NCBI GenBank assembly: GCA_016927865.1
Contig: JAFGLU010000117.1
Span: forward strand, 1 to 64,000
Direction: 5' to 3'
Length of the DNA stretch: 64,000 nt
Source: Anaerolineaceae bacterium
GTDB lineage: Bacteria; Chloroflexota; Anaerolineae; Anaerolineales; Anaerolineaceae
In this document: positions 10,573-64,000 of the stretch, one piece after another
Layout of the letters: the number at the start of each line of letters is the position of its first letter
Numbering within the stretch: position 1 is the stretch's first letter
Program-made: the position numbers and the translations under genes
The notes under the pieces: generated by a model
What the model was told of the DNA's origin: nothing
Database searches by the model: none
What the model saw: only the letters and a program-made list of their open reading frames with translations

Positions 10573-11141
10573 TTGCAATTGTCCAAGGACCAGTGGCCGC
10601 CCTGACCGAGGGAGCGCTGGTGGTGATGGTAGGCGGGGTGGGCTTGCATGTGCATGTGACAATGCAGACGCGGGCTAAGGCGCGAATTGGCGAACATGTC
10701 TCACTGCATACGCATCTTGTGGTGCGCGAGGATTTGTTGGCCTTATATGGGTTTGAAGTGGAAGCCGAGCGCGAGTTGTTCATCCTCCTGCTGGGGGTGA
10801 GTGGGGTGGGGCCACGCATTGGGCTGGCTATCCTTTCGACGCTTTCCACGGATGCGATCCGGCGGGCGGTGTTGAGCGAGCAGGCCGAGGTGTTTGCGCG
10901 GGTGCCTGGCGTGGGCAAGCGCAATGCTCAAAAGATTCTCCTGCACCTGCAAGGTAAGATTAAGGGGGACGGGTTGGAAGCCGTGGCTGGCGTGAGCGAC
11001 ACAGACGAAGCCGTTCTGGATGCGCTGACCAGCCTGGGTTACAGCGTGGTGGAGGCGCAGGCAGCGCTGCAATCTATTCCGCGAGATGCTCCCGCGGATG
11101 TGGAAGAGAGATTGCGGATTGCGCTGCAATTTTTCTCCTAA
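10569..11141 (+). CDS. ruvA: Holliday junction DNA helicase subunit RuvA
   Basis: A 190-residue protein with the OB-fold N-domain (MIAIVQGPVAALTEGALVVM), two helix-hairpin-helix motifs (LLGVSGVGPRIGLAILS and FARVPGVGKRNAQKILLHL) and the C-terminal three-helix domain that contacts RuvB. Length is normal. It overlaps the methyltransferase gene by ATGA, which sets the start at 10569. It is the last gene of the yebC operon; RuvB must be encoded elsewhere. Confidence 0.95.
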   Translation: MIAIVQGPVAALTEGALVVMVGGVGLHVHVTMQTRAKARIGEHVSLHTHLVVREDLLALYGFEVEAERELFILLLGVSGVGPRIGLAILSTLSTDAIRRAVLSEQAEVFARVPGVGKRNAQKILLHLQGKIKGDGLEAVAGVSDTDEAVLDALTSLGYSVVEAQAALQSIPRDAPADVEERLRIALQFFS

Positions 11142-11164
11142 ATAGAGTTTGCAAAGGGTGAAAC

Positions 11165-11193
11165 TGGACAATTGTATACCTTTCAGGTATGAT
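11165..11193 (+). promoter_or_regulatory. Candidate sigma-70 promoter of the atp genes
   Basis: TGGACA (11165-11170) and TATGAT (11188-11193) are separated by exactly 17 bp, in the 117-bp gap between ruvA and atpA. A second possible -35 (TTGACA at 11197) follows. The leader to atpA would be about 60 bases and ends with GGAGG. Confidence 0.6.
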
Positions 11194-11258
11194 AGGTTGA
11201 CAAACCGGTTCAATCGGAAAAATTAGTGGGTGCGCCCGAATTGCCATGTGGAGGTTCA

Positions 11259-12926
11259 ATGTCAGATCTGGTTCAAAAGCTCAGCAGTGAATTACATGAA
11301 AAAATCCAAACTTACCAGACCGAACTTGAAGTACGCGACCTTGGGACGGTGACCGAGGCGGGTGATGGCATTGCCCGCGCGGATGGATTGGCGAAAGTGC
11401 GTTCGCAAGAACTGGTTGAGTTTGAGAATGGAGTCATGGGGATTGCCTTCAGCCTGGAACATGATTCGGTGGGTATCATCATTCTGGGTGATTACACATC
11501 GGTCAAGGAGGGCATGTTGGTGCACTCCACCGGGCGCATTGCCTCGGTGCCGGTAGGCAATGGACTGGTTGGCCGGGTGGTGAACTCGCTGGGCGAGCCT
11601 GTGGATGGCAAGGGCGCTCTGGACTTCAGCAGTTATCGCCCGATCGAACGAATTGCGGCCGGCGTAATTGCTCGCCAGGACGTGGATACGCCCGTCCAGA
11701 CGGGGTTGAAAGCGATTGATGCGATGATCCCGATTGGCCGCGGGCAGCGCGAACTGATCATTGGTGACCGCCAGACGGGTAAATCGGCTATTGCCATTGA
11801 TACGATCATCAATCAAAAAGGCAAGGATATGATCTGCGTCTACGTCGCCATCGGTCAGAAGAAATCGACTGTGGCGCGCACGGTAGCCTTGCTGGAACGC
11901 TACGGAGCGATGGAACATACCGTGGTTGTGATGGCAGCGGCGGATGAGACGGCAGCTATGCAGTATATTGCGCCGTATGCGGGCTGCGCCATTGGTGAGG
12001 AGTTCATGGAGCAGGGCAAGGACGCCCTGGTGGTGTATGACGATTTGAGCAAGCATGCCTGGGCATACCGGCAGGTGTCTTTGCTGCTGCGGCGCCCGCC
12101 GGGCCGCGAGGCATATCCTGGCGACTTGTTTTATTTGCACTCGCGCTTGCTGGAACGCGCCGTGCGCCTGGCCGACAAGTATGTAATTGTCCCGGCGAAT
12201 TTTACGGGTATGACGGCCCTGACCGGTGAGAGCGTAGACGGCCAAGTCTACGATGGACCAATCTCAAAACATCACGCCGAAGAGGCGTTGAAGGGTATGA
12301 ACTCGCCGGAGAATTACAAGGTGGTCAAGGTGCAGGGCAGCGGCGGCTCGCTGACGGCACTGCCGATCATCGAGACTCTGCTGGGCGATGTGTCGGCTTA
12401 CGTGCCGACCAACGTGATTTCGATCACCGACGGGCAGATTTATCTTGAGTCTGACCTGTTCAACGCGGGCATCCGCCCGGCGATCAATGTAGGTATTTCG
12501 GTTTCGCGCGTGGGTGGCTCGGCTCAAACCAAGGCTATCCGGCAGGTGGCTGGGCGTTTGCGCCTGGACATGGCTTCCTATCGTGCCCTGGCAGCCTTTG
12601 CGCAGTTCAGCGACAGCCTGGATAAAGCTACCCAGACTCAACTGATGCGCGGGCAGCATTTGCAGGAGATGCTTAAGCAGGCTCAATATGAGCCGGTGTC
12701 TTTGGAGAACGAAGTGATGGCATTGTTCGCCGGAACAAACGGCTTTACCGATCAGATCCCGCTGGATAAGATGCGTGCCTGGGAACAAGGGTTCATCCGT
12801 TATATGGAAACCAGCCACCCAGAGATCGGCAAGAGCATTCTCGAGAACAAACGCATCCTGGAGGATGTAGAAGTTAAACTGCGAGAAGCGGTTCAGGCTT
12901 ATAACGCGACCTGGTTGACGGCCTAA
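11259..12926 (+). CDS. atpA: F1F0 ATP synthase subunit alpha
   Basis: A 555-residue F1 alpha subunit with the P-loop [14 protein letters not shown], the [13 protein letters not shown] region, [14 protein letters not shown] and [13 protein letters not shown]. At about 555 residues it is some 40-45 longer than typical alpha subunits. The excess is an insertion at roughly residues 312-355, between [13 protein letters not shown] and [12 protein letters not shown], where the family normally has a short loop. The start at 11259 follows GGAGG. It is the first of four F1 genes; no F0 (a, c, b) or delta gene lies upstream, where ruvA is found instead. Confidence 0.96.
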
Positions 12927-12937
12927 GCGGGGTACCG

Positions 12938-15236
<2,299 letters not shown>

Positions 15237-54095: not shown

Positions 54096-54123
54096 TTGAC
54101 AATCACCCAGAGCCGATTATAAT
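54096..54123 (+). promoter_or_regulatory. Consensus promoter of tRNA-Leu
   Basis: TTGACA (54096-54101) and TATAAT (54118-54123), both perfect, are separated by 16 bp. The tRNA begins 13 bases after the -10. It is the best promoter match in the window. Confidence 0.85.
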
Positions 54124-54135
54124 ACATCCACACCC

Positions 54136-54217
54136 GCGCTGGTGCTGGAACTGGCAGACAGGCATGGTTGAGGGCCATGTGGGGAGACCCGTGGAGGTTC
54201 AAGTCCTCTCCAGCGCA
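54136..54217 (+). tRNA. tRNA-Leu (anticodon GAG)
   Basis: A class II tRNA with a long variable arm. The acceptor GCGCTGG pairs with CCAGCGC, the anticodon stem CATGG/CCATG surrounds TTGAGGG (anticodon GAG), the variable arm is TGTGGGGAGACCCGT, and the T-arm has GGTTCAAGTCC. CCA is not encoded. Its last 15 bases lie within the 17-bp direct repeat that bounds the mobile element; the gene is intact after integration. Confidence 0.96.
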
Positions 54218-54219
54218 CA
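54203..54219 (+). other. attL: Attachment site, left (tRNA side)
   Basis: GTCCTCTCCAGCGCACA at the 3' end of tRNA-Leu recurs exactly at 62132-62148. A tRNA 3' end is the classical target of tyrosine recombinases, and such an enzyme lies near the other copy. Which base is the crossover cannot be told. Confidence 0.85.
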
Positions 54220-54270
54220 AAATAGTCATTAAGTTATGTGATTTTGGTGATTTTTGTCACCACCCTCCCC

Positions 54271-54300
54271 AAAAAGCCCGCTTCCGAGGGCTTTTTTTGT
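54271..54300 (+). terminator. Terminator inside the element, after tRNA-Leu
   Basis: AAAAAGCCC and GGGCTTTTT with loop GCTTCCGA, followed by more T. It would now end the tRNA-Leu transcript and, reading the other way, the small genes from 54444. Confidence 0.75.
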
Positions 54301-54443
54301 TATGAGTTGATTCGGTTGTAAAGGTTCCAGTTTCAACGCTTGGGGAATGGTATCAGTAAGCGGTGACCGGGTCACGGTTATCTTCAGCGCAGTCACCCCG
54401 AAGGGGCGGACCGTAAACCGAACAATCAGGTCGAAAGCGTCAG

Positions 54444-54710
54444 TCAATCTTTGTTTTCTTGTTCGAGTTTCGCCACAATTTCGGAAAGTAACCGTTTTTC
54501 CGATTCTGTAAGGCATCCCGGCGCTAGTCTGGAGATTTTCTCTCCGCCCATCGCAACGCATCTAGCAATTGCCGCTTCGTCCCCTTTACTGATAAGCTCT
54601 AGTTCCCGAGTACTAAATTTAGCCCAAAACGCTTTATATTGATCCCGGCGAGCTTGCCAGTGGGCGCGAGCCCGATTTTGTAAACGGTCAATTCGTGGCT
54701 TCTGGGTCAT
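54444..54710 (-). CDS. Small hypothetical protein of the element
   Basis: An 88-residue charged, helical protein (RAHWQARRDQYKAFWAKF, ELELISKGDEAAIARC). It overlaps the HTH gene upstream by 23 bases, which suggests a real gene in a tight phage-like run. I do not recognise the family. It is the last gene before the left boundary. Confidence 0.55.
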   Translation of the reverse strand: MTQKPRIDRLQNRARAHWQARRDQYKAFWAKFSTRELELISKGDEAAIARCVAMGGEKISRLAPGCLTESEKRLLSEIVAKLEQENKD

Positions 54711-55074
54711 TCAGCATCTCCTCTATTCGGTCTAGGCGAGCCGATAATAGGGTCGTTTCGTGTAAGCGGGCGTGATTGGTGAATATCGCGTTTACAACCT
54801 TTATTCTTTGGGCCGGGGTGGTCCTTGATGACTTGAGCAACTTTTGCAATTCGTCGGCCCCTTCCCCCAACAATGCTGAAAGCCTCCCTAATGCACCACG
54901 AACTAGCTCGTTTCGGGCCGCTTCCAGGGCCACCTTAAAAATTTCGTCGTCGTGCATCCATCGATAAACGGTTCTTGGTGATACATTTGCCGTGTTTGCG
55001 GCCTGTTCGATGGTTCCGCCCGTCATCAAGGCAGTTATGCAAATTTGCTGCTTTGGAGTGACATTTTCGGCCAT
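54688..55074 (-). CDS. HTH protein, small-terminase-like
   Basis: A 128-residue protein with a clear N-terminal helix-turn-helix (TIEQAANTANVSPRTVYRWM, residues 20-39) and then helical text (EIFKVALEAARNELVRG). The arrangement of KQQICITALMTGG before the HTH is like phage small terminase subunits and the phBC6A51-type HTH proteins found in prophages and satellites. No large terminase is present. The last part is a helical tail. Confidence 0.65.
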   Translation of the reverse strand: MAENVTPKQQICITALMTGGTIEQAANTANVSPRTVYRWMHDDEIFKVALEAARNELVRGALGRLSALLGEGADELQKLLKSSRTTPAQRIKVVNAIFTNHARLHETTLLSARLDRIEEMLNDPEATN

Positions 55075-55084
55075 TCTCGGAAGC

Positions 55085-55528
55085 CTAAAACTTAATCGAC
55101 CGTCTAGAGGCAGCGTTTCCGGCGATCTGACCGAGTACCATCTGGGTTAGCATTTGGGCGCGAATGGCAGGCCATGCCTGCTCAAAGTCAACAGATGATC
55201 CGCCTGCTGCTTGCCATTTTAGGGACGCACGTTCCTTTAATTCGGCTTCCTGTGAGGCGCGGGCCTCTTCCAGTAAACGGCTGCTTTCAGATTCCCGTTC
55301 GACGCTTCGGTTTTTTATAGCTTCGAGGGAGGCGCGAGCCTTTGTGAGTGCCGTTATATAACGGCCTTCATGCCCTGCAAGTTTGGCCTTTAGGGTTGTG
55401 GTTTCGGGCTCAAATCCGGATTTTTCGGAAGAGGCTATTTCATCTTCAAGACGGGCCTTGATGGTCCGATATTCGGCCTCTAAAACGTCTACACGCTTTT
55501 GGGCTTGTGATACGGTTTCTTCTGGCAT
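55085..55528 (-). CDS. Coiled-coil hypothetical protein of the element
   Basis: A 147-residue protein almost entirely helical and rich in Glu, Ala, Lys and Arg (QKRVDVLEAEYRTIKARLED, SRLLEEARASQEAELKE), so a long coiled coil. It has AAAGGAAC before its start and lies 10 bases upstream of the HTH gene. It resembles phage scaffold or structural accessory proteins in composition only. Function unknown. Confidence 0.6.
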   Translation of the reverse strand: MPEETVSQAQKRVDVLEAEYRTIKARLEDEIASSEKSGFEPETTTLKAKLAGHEGRYITALTKARASLEAIKNRSVERESESSRLLEEARASQEAELKERASLKWQAAGGSSVDFEQAWPAIRAQMLTQMVLGQIAGNAASRRSIKF

Positions 55529-55595
55529 TTGTACGGTTCCTTTCTTTTCGAATAAATTGCGGGCGTAAGCCCGAACTTACTGGTTATCCTTAATA

Positions 55596-55623
55596 TTGGT
55601 TTTTCTTACAGTTGGTTTTTCTT
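55596..55623. repeat. A+T-rich direct repeats beside the iterons
   Basis: TTGGTTTTTCTT occurs at 55596-55607 and again at 55612-55623. Together with neighbouring TTAATATT it forms an A+T-rich patch next to the 21-bp repeats, as at the unwinding region of iteron-type origins. Confidence 0.5.
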
Positions 55624-55659
55624 TAAGTACCCTGGCGACTTCGGTCCTATTTCGTGTGG

Positions 55660-55722
55660 GTACTGGGCCGCTTCATTACAGTACCAGACCGTTTCACTAC
55701 GGTACTAGGTGGTTTCTCGATT
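55660..55722. repeat. Three tandem 21-bp repeats (iteron-like)
   Basis: GTACTGGGCCGCTTCATTAC, GTACCAGACCGTTTCACTAC and GTACTAGGTGGTTTC begin at 55660, 55681 and 55702, exactly 21 bp apart. The first two match at 15 of 21 positions and all differences are transitions. The third overlaps the end of the Rep-like gene. Position and period fit origin iterons. Confidence 0.55.
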
Positions 55723-56235
55723 AACTACATAATCGACAATCGCCATCGCTGACTGAACATCCCCCTCTTGAATGTACGATAAATACGCTTTCTTTTCTTC
55801 TTTGCTATCAAGTAGGTTGAGGTTTTCATAAACCGCATTGTTTGCGGTCCAAATATTCTTGACCTTTACCACCACGGAGGGAAATTCACCGTGAAAGCTG
55901 CGTTTCTCGGACGAAACCAATCCCCATTTCTCTAACTCTTTTCTGGCGCGGGTCAAGGTCGATTTTGAAATACACAAACGTTTACAAATCCTTTCGCTGC
56001 TTTCCCAGCACGCCCCGCCATCGCCCTCGCCCGTCACCCGTTTGTAATGGGCATACAAGCGGAAGGCGACGGTAGAAAGGGGAAGATCATCAACCAAGTT
56101 CGGAAGCATGGTAAAGAAACGCGGTTCCGCGTTTTCGGCGATTATTAGGGTATCTTGCTGGTTTTGGCTTGTCGATGTTCCTGACATTATCGATTCCTGC
56201 CTCGCATCCTTATTAGGTGGTATCGCTTCAGTCAT
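55705..56235 (-). CDS. Rep-like helix-turn-helix protein
   Basis: A 176-residue protein. FFTMLPNLVDDLPLSTVAFRLY followed by HYKRVTGEGDGGACWES and SERICKRLCISKSTLTRARK (winged-helix recognition region, residues 85-105) is the layout of HTH replication proteins of small plasmids, phages and conjugative elements. Iteron-like repeats lie at its 3' end. It overlaps the upstream ribbon-helix-helix gene by eight bases. It is probably the replication initiator or a regulator of the element. Confidence 0.7.
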   Translation of the reverse strand: MTEAIPPNKDARQESIMSGTSTSQNQQDTLIIAENAEPRFFTMLPNLVDDLPLSTVAFRLYAHYKRVTGEGDGGACWESSERICKRLCISKSTLTRARKELEKWGLVSSEKRSFHGEFPSVVVKVKNIWTANNAVYENLNLLDSKEEKKAYLSYIQEGDVQSAMAIVDYVVNRETT

Positions 56236-56434
56236 TCTCCGGCTGATTCGGGGACTGTGATCCCTTTGTGCCAGATTCCTCGGTTACGGCGCGGGCCGTT
56301 TTCATAGCTTCTGCCATACTGATAACTGCAAAACGGACGGCAGCGGTTCTGGAAAGCCCCGTTATTGATTGCAGTTTATCGAGTGCCGTGGCGGTCTTTT
56401 GGTTCATGCTGATGTGTAAAGGGGGGTGGGGCAT
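56228..56434 (-). CDS. Small ribbon-helix-helix-like protein
   Basis: A 68-residue protein, LHISMNQKTATALDKLQSIT then GLSRTAAVRFAVISMAEAM, matching the strand-helix-helix pattern of Arc/CopG regulators. It overlaps the Rep-like gene by eight bases. A CopG-type repressor next to a Rep gene is common in small replicons and would control copy number, which is inference. Confidence 0.65.
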   Translation of the reverse strand: MPHPPLHISMNQKTATALDKLQSITGLSRTAAVRFAVISMAEAMKTARAVTEESGTKGSQSPNQPEND

Positions 56435-56458
56435 TGTGATTATCCTTTGCTAGAATAT

Positions 56459-56725
56459 ATGTTCTGTTTATACATACGGATTATAGCTCAATCACTGGAC
56501 CAAACCGAACGGAAAATAAAATTGTTGCTGGGATGGTATGCTAACCGTAAAGAGGTTAGGTTTTATTTAAGAATAGGCGCGATTGCAATTCTGCTTTATG
56601 GGTATTGGATGTGGCGTGCCTTTGCCTTGCAGATGGTAAGCTTTCATAAAGAGTACGTGGATTTACAAGTATTGGGAAGATGCCTGGCTCAAACTGATAT
56701 CTTTGTTATTGACGCTCATCAATAG
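56459..56725 (+). CDS. Possible small membrane protein
   Basis: A frame of 88 residues from the ATG at 56459 with one hydrophobic helix (LRIGAIAILLYGYWMWRAFAL). It lies between divergent genes. There is no clear ribosome-binding site and no recognised family, so it may not be a gene. Confidence 0.35.
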   Translation: MFCLYIRIIAQSLDQTERKIKLLLGWYANRKEVRFYLRIGAIAILLYGYWMWRAFALQMVSFHKEYVDLQVLGRCLAQTDIFVIDAHQ

Positions 56726-56781
56726 GGAAGTCCGGTAGACAATACTTCTTAATTTTGGGTCTATACTAACTCTATAAGGAT

Positions 56782-57762
56782 ATGGAGGAATACTTGAAAC
56801 TATCTTCTCGAACAATAGCTGATTTATCCGAAATAGTGTGTGGGAATTCCGGAAAAGAAGTTAGTAATTTTCCATACAGAAGCAGTTCAAAACTTACTCG
56901 CTTTTTCACCAATTGTGATTTGAATTACATCCATAGTGGTGAAACAAGGAATTATTGGGTGGAAAAGGTGCTCCTCGAACTTAATTCCGGTTTAGCTTCG
57001 ACCCCTACATTGCCCAGCGATTCCATTATTAGGGTGATCCAAGAATTACTCAATGTGTCCGAATTTGAAGGATTAGAACTAGATAGAAATAAAGCCTGTG
57101 AATTTTTGAATAAAGTGCTTATTCGTGAAGGTATTGAAGCTTACTTTGACGTATCGGGTAGGTGTTTTGTAAGGTCATTAAATTCACAGGTAACCTCAGA
57201 ATTTTCGAAAGTCCAACCTCGACCGCTTTCAGCAAGTGAGTTGTCAAAAAGACAGGAAATCGAAGAATTTTTAGGAGCTGCATCCGAGGATGAAATTATA
57301 GAGAAATTATTGGTTCCGATGTTCCGTCAGTTAGGTTTTTTGAGAGTAGTACCAACGGGACACCGTGAGAAAAACCTTGAGTTTGGAAAAGATATTTGGA
57401 TGAAATACCGCTTACCTACTGGACATTTTATTTATTTTGTTGCCCAGGTTAAAAAAGATAAAATTGATTCCGCGGGCAAAGATATAAATAGCAATATCAG
57501 TGGCATTTTAAGCCAAGCACGAATGGCTTTAGATTATCCTGTATTTGATCCTGAGACAAACAGGAAACATCTAGTAGACCATGTTTACATAATCTCTGGC
57601 AGTATCATTACAAAACCTGCAAGGCTATTGCTTATTGAGCACTTGGACAAAGAAGCCCGCAGACACATTATATTTATGGACAGAGATGAAATATTGGACT
57701 TGGGTGCAATAACAGCGATTAATGTGCAACAAAAAGATGAAGGGATAGATTTGCCTTTCTAG
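56782..57762 (+). CDS. Putative defence protein with Mrr-like nuclease domain
   Basis: A 326-residue protein. The N-terminal half (KLTRFFTNCDLNYIHSGETR, NYWVEKVLLELN, IIRVIQELL) resembles the N-terminal domain shared by AbiJ-type abortive-infection proteins. The C-terminal half is a restriction-endonuclease-like fold, with Glu200/Asp204 (LEFGKDIWMKY) and Gln222-Val-Lys224 (FVAQVKKDKID) as a PD-(D/E)xK site of the Mrr type. A GGAGG just inside the start codon would better serve the TTG at 56794. It is A+T-rich, convergent with the restriction-modification pair, and probably an independent anti-phage gene. Confidence 0.65.
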   Translation: MEEYLKLSSRTIADLSEIVCGNSGKEVSNFPYRSSSKLTRFFTNCDLNYIHSGETRNYWVEKVLLELNSGLASTPTLPSDSIIRVIQELLNVSEFEGLELDRNKACEFLNKVLIREGIEAYFDVSGRCFVRSLNSQVTSEFSKVQPRPLSASELSKRQEIEEFLGAASEDEIIEKLLVPMFRQLGFLRVVPTGHREKNLEFGKDIWMKYRLPTGHFIYFVAQVKKDKIDSAGKDINSNISGILSQARMALDYPVFDPETNRKHLVDHVYIISGSIITKPARLLLIEHLDKEARRHIIFMDRDEILDLGAITAINVQQKDEGIDLPF

Positions 57763-57897
57763 AAAATTTTTGAAAATCTGTAGAACAACGTAATGCAAAC
57801 AATGCTTTCGATAATTGCGGTTATCGGAACCCAATAATCTTCGTTATCTGCTTACAAAGTCATACAAGGGTTAATCAAAAAATCCAGCGGAAAGTTT

Positions 57898-58767
57898 CTA
57901 CTGAAGAAGGTAGTTTTTAAGAAATTCAAGAGCATCGTTTTTGCTATGAAAATTACCTTCGATATGGTCATCGTTGATGTATTTTATATATACTTCATAT
58001 CGATATAGGGGTGCTCGAGAATCATCCTCGTTATAAGTGTCTATAAACTCAATAGCTTTCCCAACCGTTTCAAACTCAAGTAAACTGCCATGTAGCGGAA
58101 GTATACGGACAAGAATAATCTTCTTCTTAATAGAAGTCTCTAGTTTGTCCATAAATTGTTTTACTGCTACATAGTTTTGTTCAACAAGAATGGCTGGCAA
58201 TAGATTTTTTTGTTCTTGAGATAAATCTTCCCATTTGGATACTTTTTCTTGAAAAACATTGTCTGGCGTATCTTCATCGTAAAAAGCGTCAATACCTACT
58301 TCTGCAAAAGCATTTATAACGTTGCTATAAGGAAAAAATAATACTGTAAACCCCAACGATAATAATTGTTGGAATGCACCTTCTGTAAACTCGCCTGCTA
58401 AGATAACTCCTAAAAATGGGGAGTTATTCTGGTATTTAGCTGATAATGGGACTATTGCGCCTTGAATCTCTTGTGCTTTATTTCTTGAATGTTTTGTATA
58501 TCTTCTCCATGCTGCTTCAATAAAAGCGACAGGTTCCCCGGTTCTATTTTGCGAACCATTTCTTTCTATTACAAAATCCAAATCATGAGTATTTCCATCT
58601 AAATCTTGCCAACTGACTTTGTTCCTTCCCTGTCTAGCTAACCTTTTCCCTCTCTTGTCTAAGAAGAGGTTATTATTTTGGCAAAATTCTGCAAGAAACG
58701 GTTCAATGGCTAGTTCCAGAACGTCTCCTATTATTTGGCCGAATTTGTGAGATGGAGAGTTAGCCAT
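57898..58767 (-). CDS. Putative type II restriction endonuclease
   Basis: A 289-residue protein next to a DNA methyltransferase. The segment DGNTHDLDFVIERNG followed by VAFIEAAWRRYTKHSRNKAQE has the acidic residues (Asp62/Asp64, Glu84) of a PD-(D/E)xK-type site, with the EAAWRR ending known in several restriction enzymes. The rest is helical/beta text without a clear family. It starts three bases after the methyltransferase stop. A+T-rich. The recognition site is not predictable. Confidence 0.72.
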   Translation of the reverse strand: MANSPSHKFGQIIGDVLELAIEPFLAEFCQNNNLFLDKRGKRLARQGRNKVSWQDLDGNTHDLDFVIERNGSQNRTGEPVAFIEAAWRRYTKHSRNKAQEIQGAIVPLSAKYQNNSPFLGVILAGEFTEGAFQQLLSLGFTVLFFPYSNVINAFAEVGIDAFYDEDTPDNVFQEKVSKWEDLSQEQKNLLPAILVEQNYVAVKQFMDKLETSIKKKIILVRILPLHGSLLEFETVGKAIEFIDTYNEDDSRAPLYRYEVYIKYINDDHIEGNFHSKNDALEFLKNYLLQ

Positions 58768-58770
58768 ATT

Positions 58771-60084
58771 TCATCCCTCAACCCAAAGACGTCCTTCATG
58801 CAATGGAACGCGATGTTTTCTGTTTTTCCATTTTATGTTTCTATCTCTAAGCTTCTCAAATGTGTAACTATAAAAACCAGCTTCGATAGCTAAATCGCCA
58901 AGCCACTTCTCTACAGGAACGTATATACCATAAGGAGCAGAGTCACCTATGACAAAACAAACTTTAGCGCCTTTCTTGCACATTCTCCTAAGTTCTATCC
59001 AAGACTTTGCCATATCAGAAAAATATGCTGCTATCATTGTGTGATAATGTTTCTTCCCACCATGTGAGTTTCTTTCTACCGCTAATTTTGTGCAAACATC
59101 TGTTAATTCTGGTCGTATTGGCTGAAGTTCATCGCGGCTTAGGATTTCTTCAAGGTTTAATTTTTCTTTAGATGCGTGCTGAGATGAAGAAACGATTAAG
59201 TTCTGTCTGACTGTTTCATGCAAATCCCCCCAAGACTTCACGTCTCCCCAAAAACTCATTTCAAATCTTGTTGCATCGGCATAATCGTAATTGTTAGCAT
59301 ATGGTGGTGATGTAATCACAATATCGATACTTTCACTTAGTACTACTTTACAATTCCTGGCGTCTCCTAAAACTACTTCTGAAAGTGAGTTCTTATACTT
59401 TTTCTGGTAGGAGTACATATCTGCTAACATTAAATCTACTTGATATTTATATGCTTCGAATGGATTATGCGTAACCTTTTTGGTCCTATTGGGAAGTATA
59501 TATTGCCATTGAGCAGTTCCTGCCGAAGAGGTTTGACGTAAAATTGATGTTATCGCTAACCAAATCAGCTCAGAAATCGGGGTTCCATCATCTTGTTCAA
59601 TCCAAGAAGTTTTAATTTTGCTCAGTTGCTCTAGGATTTCGGTCGAAAAGCATCTAACAATTAATTCCGGATATATGCTAAGGTGATGTTCTAATTTAAT
59701 AGCGTTATCCAGAACTTTTCTTGCTCTTTCAGAAAAATTATCTATTGATTGATCCCAATTTAGTTTTGCTTTTGTTATCCTGGCGACGAAAGGATGGGCT
59801 TCAATCCCGATACTTTTTAACCTGCAAGCATCAGCCCCAAGAAGAGTTGTCCCCGAACCAACGAACGGGTCTAGGAGTGTTGATGAGCCATTCTCTTTAT
59901 TGTCGTAGAGAAGATTTTCCACCCATTCTGCAGAAAAACCAGCTGAATATCGGAACCAACGATGAACTGGGAGTTTCATGTTATCCACGAAAGTCCCAGA
60001 ACGATTATCTTTCTTTTCGTTAGGTTTGTCTTCTGGTGATTTATCTGGAAATAATGGTAGCGCCCATTGAGTATAGTCTGCCAT
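58771..60084 (-). CDS. DNA methyltransferase (N4-cytosine/N6-adenine type)
   Basis: A 437-residue SAM-dependent enzyme. Motif I is DPFVGSGTT (residues 72-80) and motif IV is TSPPYANNYDY (SPPY at 259-262), the latter more common in N4-cytosine enzymes. The ~180-residue spacer probably holds the target-recognition domain. It is the first gene of the pair with the restriction enzyme and would protect the host DNA. TATAAT ends six bases before its ATG, so the message may be leaderless. Confidence 0.9.
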   Translation of the reverse strand: MADYTQWALPLFPDKSPEDKPNEKKDNRSGTFVDNMKLPVHRWFRYSAGFSAEWVENLLYDNKENGSSTLLDPFVGSGTTLLGADACRLKSIGIEAHPFVARITKAKLNWDQSIDNFSERARKVLDNAIKLEHHLSIYPELIVRCFSTEILEQLSKIKTSWIEQDDGTPISELIWLAITSILRQTSSAGTAQWQYILPNRTKKVTHNPFEAYKYQVDLMLADMYSYQKKYKNSLSEVVLGDARNCKVVLSESIDIVITSPPYANNYDYADATRFEMSFWGDVKSWGDLHETVRQNLIVSSSQHASKEKLNLEEILSRDELQPIRPELTDVCTKLAVERNSHGGKKHYHTMIAAYFSDMAKSWIELRRMCKKGAKVCFVIGDSAPYGIYVPVEKWLGDLAIEAGFYSYTFEKLRDRNIKWKNRKHRVPLHEGRLWVEG

Positions 60085-60090
60085 AGCTTG

Positions 60091-60141
60091 ATTATATTGT
60101 ATGAGCTCACATTATCTTCATATTTTAATATTCGAATATTA
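60091..60141 (-). promoter_or_regulatory. Promoter and palindrome before the methyltransferase
   Basis: A perfect TATAAT on the minus strand (60096-60091) is six bases from the ATG at 60084. About 30 bases further up is TAATATTCGAATATTA (60126-60141), a perfect 16-bp palindrome that could be an operator, as in many restriction-modification loci. Confidence 0.45.
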
Positions 60142-60279
60142 GTTTAACCGAATTCACACAATTACTACACCTAATCCAGCGGAGACAGCATCAGAAGGAC
60201 CACTAAGGGGTCCTTGGGCCTTTTAAGTCTTTCTATTTGCTTGTGCACATTTTGTAATTCTTGAGCCTTGTAATACAAA

Positions 60280-60316
60280 AACGGTCTGCTCTAGTTCTTA
60301 GCGGACCGGTTTTTTA
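60280..60316. terminator. Terminator after the recombinase gene
   Basis: AAACGGTCTGC and GCGGACCGGTTTTTT form a stem with T-runs on both sides, 90 bases past the recombinase stop on the minus strand. The 324-bp gap between the methyltransferase and recombinase genes also holds an AAGGACC/GGTCCTT hairpin (60195-60215) but no gene. Confidence 0.65.
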
Positions 60317-60408
60317 TTGCCCTGTAATTGGTAAACAGCTTTTAAGACCGCGGTAGAGGTGGTGCTCCCGTCGCGTGAATACGCGCCTTAAAGCTGACAA
60401 ACAAAGGA

Positions 60409-61620
60409 TCACTTACCTTGTTTCTGAAGATCCAATAACGCCCGCCCAAAAGCCTCTAAGAATCGCGGGTCACTCAAGAGGCCCTGAAAATCAACGGGCA
60501 CGGCTTGTGGGGTGGGGTGGTGGTTGCCAGTCAAGCCCGACAATATCTCCCTCGCGTTTTCGGCTGACAAGTTACCATAAACCCCGTCTGTGATGTTTAT
60601 GCTAGAGTGCATGAGGTTTTGTGAAACGGCTTTCAATTCCGCAATATCTTTGGCGTTCTTGACACCATAAACCGCGTGCCCGTGCCGCAATTTGTGCGGA
60701 GACTTATAAGCGACTCCGGCGATATTACAGACCGTTTTCATAGTATCGACAAAAGGCACTCTTTTGGCGGCTGCTTTCGCGGGCAGCAATAAGCCATCGT
60801 CAATAATCGCCGTGCCCCATGTGTTGAGACTTGCGCACCACCGGCGAGTTGTCGGGGCATTTTCACGGACAATTGCGTCCCATTTCTTGACGGGTTCCAT
60901 TAATTCGGGAATAGGCAAAAAGCCAGTAATAGCGGCCTTCCTAAATTTGGTAAGAACGCCCATAGACGGGTCTTGTCTCACGGTCAATCGTTCCAGGTCA
61001 ACACATGAAACGGGCAAAGACAAAAAAGCCGTAATCCTCATGCCCGTAAGATACAAAAAACAGATTGATGCCTGAGCCCGCAATAACGCAAGATTTAACC
61101 TGCCATGTTTTCCAGGTTTGGCGAGTTCTTCCAGGTCCATCCCATCGAGGCGCTCGATCTGCAATTTTTCGTCAGGGATATTTGCGATTTTCAAAGCATC
61201 TTCAAGGGTCCATGCTTCGATGGTTTTTAGTTGCGCACCATCACGGGCGGCCTTTCTGGAGGGCTGAATAGACTCTATCCATAGTTGCTTTACGTCTTTG
61301 TAACGATTCGGGTACTCGGCCTTTGCCCATGTATAAAACATCCTGACTTGACCGCAAATTTTTTGTTGAGTCGCAAACGCAAGCGGCTTGCCGATTTTCG
61401 CGGCCTGCCAGCGGGTATCGTTGCGGACCGTCAAAAGGTAGTTAGGTAGTGTTGGTTTTTCCTTGCGGGGGGCTTGCGGCAGCGGGATATTGTCAGCCCA
61501 AAGAAGCAAGTGCTTAAGATAAACCTCGAATCCCCGGATTGTTAAAGGGTCTTTTTGCTCGACTTCGGACTGGTAGCGAATAAATGCCTTCACATCATGG
61601 TAGTTTTGGCGCTCGATCAT
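60409..61620 (-). CDS. Tyrosine recombinase/integrase
   Basis: A 403-residue site-specific recombinase. The catalytic set is Arg195 (LTGMRITAF), His309 and Arg312 (SPHKLRHGHAVYG), His338 (LMHSSINITDG) and Tyr348 (VYGNLS). An N-terminal SAM-like core-binding region precedes it. It would drive integration at tRNA-Leu. It lies at the distal end of the element and overlaps the HTH/zinc-ribbon gene as ATGA. Confidence 0.93.
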   Translation of the reverse strand: MIERQNYHDVKAFIRYQSEVEQKDPLTIRGFEVYLKHLLLWADNIPLPQAPRKEKPTLPNYLLTVRNDTRWQAAKIGKPLAFATQQKICGQVRMFYTWAKAEYPNRYKDVKQLWIESIQPSRKAARDGAQLKTIEAWTLEDALKIANIPDEKLQIERLDGMDLEELAKPGKHGRLNLALLRAQASICFLYLTGMRITAFLSLPVSCVDLERLTVRQDPSMGVLTKFRKAAITGFLPIPELMEPVKKWDAIVRENAPTTRRWCASLNTWGTAIIDDGLLLPAKAAAKRVPFVDTMKTVCNIAGVAYKSPHKLRHGHAVYGVKNAKDIAELKAVSQNLMHSSINITDGVYGNLSAENAREILSGLTGNHHPTPQAVPVDFQGLLSDPRFLEAFGRALLDLQKQGK

Positions 61621-62039
61621 TTCTTGCCCCCTAAAGAAGCAAATCTTCCGATATTACGCTCACACAATGGGCACGTGGCAATTTTTAGGTAAACGCCTTT
61701 TCGGGCAATTGGCTTGCGGCGAAAGTCAGACGCCTCAAACCATGAATTACAATGGCGGCAAAAGAAGTCATTTTCCCCTACAACGTGCTCCGGGCTTTTT
61801 GCCTTTCCTTTTTCTATCGTGCTTTCGAGCCATGTTTTTAGATCTGTTCCAACAATCCAAAAATGCCCGGTATCATCACATCGAGCGGGAAGGCCGGATG
61901 GTATCCATGAGTTGTAAATGGTCGCAGTGGTTACACCTAATTCGTCAGCTAATTCGGACGGTTTATACTCCATAGGGAGAAGGTTCCTTGCCTTTTGCAA
62001 TCCACCTGCCTTAAGTCTTGGGGTCCTTACTTCTTGCAT
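61617..62039 (-). CDS. Excisionase-like HTH protein with zinc ribbon
   Basis: A 140-residue protein. A MerR/excisionase-like HTH (YKPSELADELGVTTATIYNS) is followed by a basic region and a zinc ribbon (FFCRHCNSWF ... CPLCERN). AGAGG before the ATG at 62039 supports that start. It is coupled to the recombinase and probably controls direction of recombination or binds the attachment site. The zinc ribbon is uncommon for excisionases. Confidence 0.75.
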   Translation of the reverse strand: MQEVRTPRLKAGGLQKARNLLPMEYKPSELADELGVTTATIYNSWIPSGLPARCDDTGHFWIVGTDLKTWLESTIEKGKAKSPEHVVGENDFFCRHCNSWFEASDFRRKPIARKGVYLKIATCPLCERNIGRFASLGGKK

Positions 62040-62131
62040 AATTCCTCTTTTCTTGTGGGTGAGTTTGGTTATTAAACAAACGCCCGCGTTAGATGGGGAC
62101 AAAAACGTATAAAATCACTGTTACATTATGC

Positions 62132-62148
62132 GTCCTCTCCAGCGCACA
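62132..62148 (+). other. attR: Attachment site, right (distal)
   Basis: Exact second copy of GTCCTCTCCAGCGCACA from the tRNA-Leu 3' end (54203-54219), lacking the rest of the tRNA. It lies about 90 bases upstream of the excisionase-like start. Confidence 0.85.
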
Positions 62149-62152
62149 CAAG

Positions 62153-62175
62153 AGCCGCAATCAAGCGGCTTTTTT
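62153..62175 (+). terminator. Displaced tRNA-Leu terminator
   Basis: AGCCGC-AATCAA-GCGGCT with five T residues. It follows attR at the distance expected for a tRNA terminator, although no gene now precedes it. It is probably the host terminator separated from tRNA-Leu by integration. Confidence 0.75.
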
Positions 62176-62200: not shown

Positions 62201-62307
62201 AACTACTCGGTGGGTGAGAAAAATCTCTGAATTTGAGGTTTGTGTGCGGGGCTTCGCCCCGCACACAAACCTCAAATTCAGGCTTTCCCGGCTTCGGTAA
62301 GTGGGAA
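62201..62307. repeat. CCGAAWTT palindromic repeat, copy 4, with extended flanks
   Basis: The 55-bp core (62227-62281) has arms CTGAATTTGAGG outward and centre GGGGC-TTC-GCCCC. The left flank AACTACTCGGTGGGTGAG matches AATTACTCAGTGGGCGGAG of the copy at 16891. The centres of the two copies differ but each remains self-complementary. About 300 bp here holds no gene. Confidence 0.8.
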
Positions 62308-62407: not shown

Positions 62408-64000
62408 ATGTCTGGTCAAAGCATTTTACTCGTAGATGACGACCGCAGCATTGCCCGGTTATGCCAGCGCTTGTTGGAGCGTGCAGAGTACGAAGTGATT
62501 GCTTGCACCGATCCGACCGATGCGTTGCGCGTGCTTGCATCCCGCAAGATGGATTTATTGATATCGGATATTCGCATGCCGGTGATGGACGGCTTTGAGC
62601 TGATCTCGCGCTGCAAGCAGATTCAACCCTCGCTGGCGGTGCTGGTGATGACTGGGTTCGGTTCTGTGGACACAGCCATTCAGGCTCTTTACCGCGGCGT
62701 GGACGGGTTGATCCTTAAGCCCTTTGAGAACACCACCGATTTGGTACGGGTGGTGCAGCGCGTGTTGGATGAGAGCCGCCAGAAGCAGGACGCAGCTCGC
62801 GCTCAGGCGCTGCGGCCTTTGTTTGACGTCACTGAAAAACTACTCTCGCAAACCTCTCCGGAAGCGTTGGAAGAGATGCTTCCACAAACGATGGAGCATG
62901 TGTTCAACGCGCCTTTTGCCGGGGTCATTCAGACAGACGGCGAGCAAGGAGCGGGGCGGCTGGTGATGGGCGCGGGGCTGCCTGCGGTGGAGGACGGAAC
63001 CTATTCTGCCTGGGAAAAAATGGCTGGTCTTCTTTCTAGGGTAGAATCAGCGTCGATTTTTAGCACAGCCGGTCCCGGAGATGTTGATATGCGTGCCTGC
63101 CTGGAGGAATTGTCCTGGTCGGGCTGTATGGCGTCGGTTGTGCTGCGCAATGAGCAGCAATTTGTCTTCTTCACCGGCAGGCAGGCCGACAGTCCTCCTT
63201 TTACGGAATCGGACTTGGAGTTGTTTGGTATTTTGGCCCGCCAGGCGGTGGTTGCCATGGAAAACAACCGCCTGTATACCGATCTGCGTAATTCGATTAC
63301 CCAGTTGGAGGAATCGCAGCGGGCATTGATCCAGGCTGAGAAAATGGCCGCGGTGGGCAGACTTTCGGCCACCCTGGCGCACGAGATTAACAACCCGCTG
63401 CAGGCAGTGCGCAACTGCCTGCATCTGGCCAACCGTTCCGATATCGGCGCGGAACAGCGCATGAATTATTTGGCGATGACCACGACCGAGGTGGACCGTC
63501 TTGTGAGCACCGTGCGGCACCTGCTCGATTTCTACCGGCCGGGCGTGCTGGTGAAGGAAGATGTGAATCTCGATAATGTGGTCGAGCGTGTGTTGTATTT
63601 GCTGCGGGCGCAGATGGAATCGCAACATGTACAGGTGGCTTTGGCTTTTGAGGAAGGTCTGCCGCGCATCTTGGGCGTCAAGAACCAGATCCAGCAGGTG
63701 GTCTTTAACCTTTTGCTCAATGCCATGGACGCGATGGAAAGCGCAAGTGGTGAGAAGTGCATTTGGATCGAAGGTGCGGTGACGGGTAAAGGTTGGGTGG
63801 TGTTCAGCGTTGAAGACAGCGGCACGGGTGTGTCTGCAGAAATGCGTGATAAATTATTTGAGCCTTTTGTGAGCTCAAAAAAACAAGGTACAGGTCTTGG
63901 TTTGTCGGTAAGTTATGGTATTATCGAAAATCATGGGGGGACGATGCAGCTTGGGCAACCCAAGCATGGTCAGGGGGCGCGGTTTGAAGTGTTATTACCA
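62408..64000 (+). CDS. Hybrid response regulator/histidine kinase (3' end outside window)
   Basis: An open frame of 531 codons with no stop before the window ends. Domain order: REC (ILLVDDDRSIARL, phospho-acceptor Asp54 in LLISDIRMPVMDGFE, Lys in LILKPFE), a GAF-like middle region (about residues 140-300), HisKA (LSATLAHEINNPLQAVRN, His325), and HATPase_c (QVVFNLLLNAMDAM, DSGTGVS, GTGLGLSVSYGIIENHGG). No membrane helix is seen. An N-terminal receiver before a kinase suggests that it takes a phosphate or signal from another kinase. AAGGAG precedes the ATG. Confidence 0.92.
   Translation, partial: MSGQSILLVDDDRSIARLCQRLLERAEYEVIACTDPTDALRVLASRKMDLLISDIRMPVMDGFELISRCKQIQPSLAVLVMTGFGSVDTAIQALYRGVDGLILKPFENTTDLVRVVQRVLDESRQKQDAARAQALRPLFDVTEKLLSQTSPEALEEMLPQTMEHVFNAPFAGVIQTDGEQGAGRLVMGAGLPAVEDGTYSAWEKMAGLLSRVESASIFSTAGPGDVDMRACLEELSWSGCMASVVLRNEQQFVFFTGRQADSPPFTESDLELFGILARQAVVAMENNRLYTDLRNSITQLEESQRALIQAEKMAAVGRLSATLAHEINNPLQAVRNCLHLANRSDIGAEQRMNYLAMTTTEVDRLVSTVRHLLDFYRPGVLVKEDVNLDNVVERVLYLLRAQMESQHVQVALAFEEGLPRILGVKNQIQQVVFNLLLNAMDAMESASGEKCIWIEGAVTGKGWVVFSVEDSGTGVSAEMRDKLFEPFVSSKKQGTGLGLSVSYGIIENHGGTMQLGQPKHGQGARFEVLLP

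Follow-up and report, generated by a model that had tools for sequence, protein, structure and literature searches.

Most of what is known about phage satellites comes from Staphylococcus, Streptococcus, Enterobacterales and Vibrio. Elements of the PICI/SaPI type carry an integrase at one end, a replication gene, an optional terS and cargo genes within 12-15 kb, and they have no structural or lytic genes (PMC6092414). The Streptococcus satellite phage Javan294 (10.4 kb, MK448406; PMC6813308) has its int gene at the opposite end from a TerS-like gene and encodes a VapE-type primase. The PICMIs of Vibrionaceae reside at fis and carry a primase and AlpA, and no terS for packaging is described in the text of the paper (PMC10803314). 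We found no report of a published phage satellite in Chloroflexi in a literature search of incomplete coverage, and a search combining Chloroflexota with satellites and helper phages matched only a preprint on YprA helicases.

Here we describe a segment of 7,929 bp located within a tRNA-Leu gene of an uncultured Anaerolineaceae bacterium, in a window of 64 kb (the whole stretch of DNA analysed). Similar to PICIs, the element has an integrase at one end, a replication-like gene, a terS-like gene and cargo, with no structural or lytic genes. It differs from them by the absence of a primase and by its integrase/HTH-zinc-ribbon pair, which belongs almost only to Chloroflexota elements and phages. 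It was not filed as a PICI, because its 7.9 kb are below the typical 12-15 kb and no clear master regulator (Stl or AlpA) was recognised by homology. With Javan294 it shares a 128-aa TerS-like gene in second-last position, an overlapping gene thereafter (76 aa in Javan294) and an int gene at the other end, but Javan294 has the VapE-type primase, an unrelated integrase and a TerS protein 26% identical to that of the window, and it comes from another phylum. PICMIs are also very small satellites with defence cargo, and their int gene and excision gene iolg overlap by 4 nt, as do the Int and HTH/zinc-ribbon genes here. Nevertheless, fis, primase and AlpA distinguish them from the window element, which was not filed as a PICMI because it has no primase and its site is tRNA-Leu. 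Filing as an IME was rejected as well, since no relaxase family was detected in the element.

Borders and gene content of the element

The features of the element and of its borders are as follows.

54136-54218, plus strand: tRNA-Leu(GAG), integration target (ARAGORN)
54203-54219, no strand: attachment core on the tRNA side, 17-bp exact repeat (repeat search and empty sites)
54271-54296, plus strand: terminator-like stem, element-borne, now after the tRNA (absent from empty sites)
54444-54710, minus strand: small protein of 88 aa, overlapping the TerS-like gene by 23 nt (homologue in L274)
54688-55074, minus strand: small-terminase-like (TerS) protein, 128 aa (PHROG 2538/3218/4044, Javan294, structure)
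55085-55528, minus strand: coiled-coil protein with a C-terminal AGGSxxDFxxxWP motif (conserved partner upstream of TerS)
55627-55705, no strand: GTAC repeats, three spaced 21 bp, at the 3' end of the Rep-like gene (possible origin, weak)
55705-56235, minus strand: replication-initiator-like (Rep-like) winged-HTH protein, 176 aa (HTH_36, 3.1e-7; PHROG 428 replication initiation, 1.4e-8)
56228-56434, minus strand: ribbon-helix-helix (RHH)-like regulator, operon head (weak PSK_trans_fac/RHH_1 matches)
56782-57762, plus strand: PD-(D/E)xK nuclease-like protein, candidate defence gene, 326 aa (44 plasmid homologues, KD...QVKK)
57898-58767, minus strand: type II restriction endonuclease (PADLOC REase_II, 1.8e-67)
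58771-60084, minus strand: type II DNA methyltransferase, N6/N4 class (PADLOC MTase_II, 2.6e-123; N6_N4_Mtase, 1.3e-12)
60409-61620, minus strand: tyrosine recombinase, Int1 family (Phage_integrase, 5e-8; conserved R, HxxR, H and Y columns)
61617-62102, minus strand: MerR/Xis-type winged HTH with four-Cys zinc ribbon (adjacency to Int, invariant Cys, model)
62132-62148, no strand: distal attachment core (repeat search)
62150-62173, plus strand: displaced host terminator of tRNA-Leu (stem search and empty sites)

At the sequence level, the element forms a discrete insertion at the tRNA-Leu(GAG) 3' end, and this tRNA gene is preceded by a perfect match to a sigma-70-type promoter (54096-54123). 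The 17-bp repeat of the tRNA 3' end, GTCCTCTCCAGCGCACA, is exact at both limits; no further copy was found in the window with up to two mismatches allowed, and no shuffled sequence contained two matches to it. The G+C content is 43.3% in the element versus 58.7% in its left flank. The preliminary description had proposed to look for an empty tRNA-Leu(GAG) site, and such a site was found in three congeneric genomes (L052, L053 and L054). In these, plsX and tRNA-Leu(GAG) are followed, with no insert, by a GC-rich hairpin bearing a run of Ts and then by a response-regulator/kinase gene, which is 55-56% identical to the window gene at 62408. In a genome of the same family (L055), whose tRNA is 98% identical, the hairpin following the tRNA is GCCGCAATTGCGGCTTTTTTT, and the hairpin directly outside the distal repeat in the window is GCCGCAATCAAGCGGCTTTTTT. 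This gene row and the L055 hairpin support the outer stem as the displaced tRNA terminator and fix the borders of the element. The preliminary description had thus rightly placed the repeats, a terminator inside the element and the original tRNA terminator beyond the distal repeat, the latter being directly supported by the empty sites of the relatives. Directly downstream of the displaced terminator, the window also contains a perfect 26-bp inverted repeat with a 3-nt loop (62227-62281).

The Int and HTH/zinc-ribbon genes overlap by 4 nt, and the second may start at ATG 62039 or TTG 62102. The Int family is found almost only in Chloroflexota records, plus 42 IMG/VR loci; a handful of records under other titles, Bacteroidetes and Atribacteria among them, might reflect mis-binning. 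A winged-HTH/four-Cys zinc-ribbon gene adjoins Int in 92 of 100 loci, upstream in 90 of those 92, and the family is also present on viral contigs of 30-40 kb. As to attachment sites, which in PICIs are ones that prophages do not use, no tRNA-Leu(GAG) was found among 80 Int1 loci, but the relative in G201 described below has its tRNA-Gln site in common with its phage. In the model of the partner protein (pLDDT 91), the winged HTH resembles MerR/BldC/excisionase-type domains (BldC, Z 6.2; RdfS excisionase, Z 5.0) and the zinc ribbon resembles the NrdR type (Z 4.6). Of 37 members, 13 match Pfam HTH_17, which is among the AlpA models applied to PICMIs, and the window protein matches it weakly. The partner is likely a recombination directionality factor.

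The genes of the operon are arranged in the order RHH-like, Rep-like, coiled-coil, TerS-like and overlapping small gene; its TerS-like and Rep-like genes had been overlooked in the preliminary description. The TerS-like protein matches small-terminase PHROGs at about 1e-8, and small-terminase PHROG matches were also obtained for the seven homologues first found. A tblastn search of 50,697 phage records yielded a sole match, the second-last gene of Javan294 (E 9e-3), and a profile of the other TerS members recovers that gene at 4.4e-25. No homologue was found among 72,556 plasmids, and a PDB sequence search gave only chance-level matches. The AlphaFold model resembles phBC6A51 (2ao9, Z 9.0), the DNA-binding domain of SF6 G1P (Z 7.4) and the small terminases of PaP3, NV1, Sf6 and G20C (Z 5.4-6.5), moderate values that for a helical protein are supportive, not proof, of a small-terminase fold. 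It is the agreement of sequence, fold and gene position that gives weight to the predicted small-terminase-like identity, an assignment by distant similarity in a family whose members are 26-34% identical to one another.

As for the other genes of the operon, the 88-aa protein has a homologue in the TerS element L274 (E 1.4e-5), L273 (E 2.7e-6) and L109 (E 6.5e-4) have coiled-coil homologues immediately ahead of TerS, and RHH-like genes occupy the same place in relatives. The Rep-like protein has 176 residues versus 323 in L116 and could be truncated. Four GTAC motifs are present within 80 bp at the end of its gene, but about 7% of shuffles also show such a cluster, which makes it a weak lead for a replication origin. 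The Rep-like and nuclease-like genes each have one relative in 200 genomes, and neither is thus a hallmark of the family.

The restriction-modification (R-M) pair and the nuclease-like gene make up 3.3 of the 7.9 kb. A PDB sequence search with the endonuclease gave chance-level matches only. The nuclease-like protein has no match in profile libraries; its homologues on 44 plasmids are 40-44% identical to it, some of them in defence-rich regions with Abi, S-4TM and ABC-three-component genes. The conserved KD...QVKK of this family (a D...QxK pattern) fits a PD-(D/E)xK nuclease, with the active site judged by eye, and a role in defence is plausible. No large terminase, portal, capsid, tail, lysis, relaxase or conjugation families were detected in the element by Pfam, PHROGs and NCBIfam scans. 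Nor does a PHROG 2 search, positive in control genomes, reveal a large terminase in the window's own genome, an 84.5% complete MAG. Scans of viral contigs with single element proteins or with alignment A4 found no relatives, alignment A1 being too divergent for pattern scans. The gene content given in the preliminary description, namely a tyrosine recombinase coupled to an HTH/zinc-ribbon partner, an R-M pair and neither conjugation nor capsid genes, was recovered in full at the same positions. Of its separate nuclease-type defence gene, the nuclease-like pattern stands, while defence is a candidate role.

Related elements in Chloroflexota

With the TerS profile, the family was detected in 22 of 400 genomes of the order and, at a stricter cut-off, in 17 of 400 genomes sampled across the phylum. 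Twelve loci are bounded by exact tRNA repeats of at least 39 bp and span 4-11.6 kb, at tRNAs for Gly, Val, Pro, Leu, Met and Arg. Their 104 tested proteins include 18 integrases, and some others are prim-pol or primases; for PHROG families, the best 25 of 63 were considered. The 23 Pfam families matched in these 12 elements include neither a large terminase nor a portal, a major capsid or a relaxase. The coiled-coil/TerS/small-gene module is kept in L273 and L109, and L273 has the order of the window, with Rep-like, coiled-coil, TerS, overlapping small gene and att. A small ORF overlapping the stop of TerS by 4-35 nt was seen in the majority of 20 loci. Outside the order, L302 and L307 are also TerS elements with flanking tRNA repeats, the repeated unit of L302 being a pair of whole tRNA-Ser genes. 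In two genomes (G004 and G007) with a clear large terminase, it is encoded away from the TerS-like gene, either on a separate contig or at a distance of about 1 Mb. One 11.6-kb TerS element at tRNA-Leu(TAA) (L114, G086) harbours internal tape-measure and minor-head genes (11101-13221); it may have captured late genes from a helper, or it may be a prophage in partial decay.

The IMG/VR contig IMGVR_UViG_3300045970_000560 (G201; 42,459 bp) holds a complete 36-kb phage with TerS-TerL-portal-major-capsid, tail-like and M23-peptidase-like genes and an integrase, Int2, that belongs to a different type. Next to Int2 is a segment of 6,002 bp bounded by TGCTGGGGCACCTGG, whose TerS and Int are 34% and 43% identical to those of the window and which also holds an HTH-zinc-ribbon gene and a coiled-coil protein. 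On one side, the core runs into a tRNA-Gln-like stretch, apparently without the 5' acceptor strand, whose tRNA identity was judged by eye in the absence of an ARAGORN call; such 5' trimming seems as expected of a phage attachment site. Segment and phage have this tRNA-Gln site in common. At the contig end, the right end of the segment is followed by the core and by its left end, a junction that either an excised circle or a tandem copy would produce, although an assembly artefact is possible. This composite is reminiscent of helper-embedded PICIs (PMC10111431), as it links a phage genome with a relative of the window element. In contrast to them, the join is at the tRNA-derived attachment site of the phage and not inside a late gene, and the window element itself lies outside any phage.

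The Int/HTH-zinc-ribbon pair occurs in other settings as well. Four loci (L167, L191, L194 and L161) carry it between repeats of tRNA-Met or other tRNAs, with similar layouts in L170, L176, L178, L185, L187 and L193. Such elements measure 5.5-10 kb, are found at tRNA-Met, Asn and Pro, and often contain a PHROG 453 replication initiator; L185, L187 and L191 have a P-loop gene resembling, by eye, a filamentous-phage morphogenesis ATPase. They are possibly ssDNA prophages and their satellites. In a recurrent arrangement of the family (L072, L076, L078, L080, L083 and L085), a second recombinase (about 21% similar) faces the pair beside tRNA-Met. The window's own genome has a second pair on a 20-kb contig (L077, G000:C24, 4285-5758), whose borders were not found. 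Stand-alone frames of 128-134 aa, whose similarity to Int is limited to its N-terminal 119 residues, were seen in about 12 places, e.g. G033:C1:1445099-1445422 and G030:C18:1452-1775.

Possible lifestyles of the element

The preliminary description had proposed a small integrative mobilisable element or a phage satellite not described in this phylum; our literature search agrees with the latter point. Between the two options, the TerS-like and replication-initiator-like genes and the absence of structural genes and relaxase favour the satellite. We consider it probable, judging from sequence, that the element is a TerS-type phage satellite of PICI-like anatomy equipped with a type II R-M pair and a nuclease-like gene. 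An integrase and a putative replication module are present, the packaging-type gene is TerS-like by sequence and fold, and structural and lytic genes are absent, as they are from the relatives except L114. Against this reading weigh the distant similarity behind the TerS assignment, the large terminase not found in the window's own incomplete genome, the short Rep-like protein and the absence of a clear master regulator. Having no coat genes but a packaging-type gene and anti-virus genes, it would most likely spread inside the particles of other viruses. On a broader scale, we lean slightly towards the view that Chloroflexota have their own widespread lineage of small TerS-type satellites, for which tailed phages from this phylum would serve as helpers and of which the G201 contig would show a natural satellite-helper composite. 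Members of this lineage would be about 4-12 kb long, with TerS usually followed by the overlapping small gene, swapped integrases and replication genes, and optional defence cargo.

Alternatively, the element might be a self-integrating defence island that does without phage particles and moves rarely, by natural uptake or passive hitch-hiking, its TerS-like protein acting in segregation or as a DNA-binding regulator. Integration apart, all functions are predicted, cargo takes up a large share of the element, and the complete phage in G201 has its own TerS beside TerL, so that a second TerS-like protein may act otherwise. However, to redirect packaging a satellite would require just such an additional TerS. 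The alignment of the window protein with a satellite-phage gene covers its full length, and many unrelated integrations retain the TerS-like gene as the end of a replication operon. We thus regard this alternative as unlikely, and decay of a tailed prophage as more doubtful still. In that scenario, the structural genes were lost, integrase, Rep and TerS were left, and the defence cargo was added later, which would be in line with the Int/HTH-zinc-ribbon family on phage-sized contigs, the short Rep-like protein and the related element that keeps minor-head and tape-measure genes. Exact repeats at both ends and intact reading frames argue against it, and decay would have had to occur independently in each of a dozen elements that show this capsid-less layout at different tRNAs.

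Elements carrying only an oriT exist, and small size, tRNA site and cargo would suit one that borrows a conjugation machine. We nevertheless deem a mobilisable element of this kind very improbable: no relaxase or conjugation family was detected in the element (Pfam, PHROGs, NCBIfam) or in the 12 relatives (Pfam), the TerS-like gene would be left without explanation, and the plasmid collection contains no TerS homologue.

If the element is a phage satellite, a helper phage or a stress signal would switch it on. Int would excise the circle, with its MerR/Xis-like partner as directionality factor, and the Rep-like protein would initiate replication. The TerS-like protein might then mark the element's own DNA for the large terminase of the helper phage, so that helper capsids are filled with it. 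After entry into a new cell, recombination by Int between the 17-bp core and tRNA-Leu would restore the 3' end of the tRNA, and the element-borne terminator would take the place of the displaced one. The R-M pair and the nuclease-like gene may protect the carrier, and hence the satellite, against other phages.

The sequenced composite would point to a helper, and the TerS profile of this work can be used to seek more members. A recurrent satellite-like lineage, if true, would extend this lifestyle to Chloroflexota, whose phages are little known, and it would offer a route for R-M and other defence genes among mostly uncultured bacteria.
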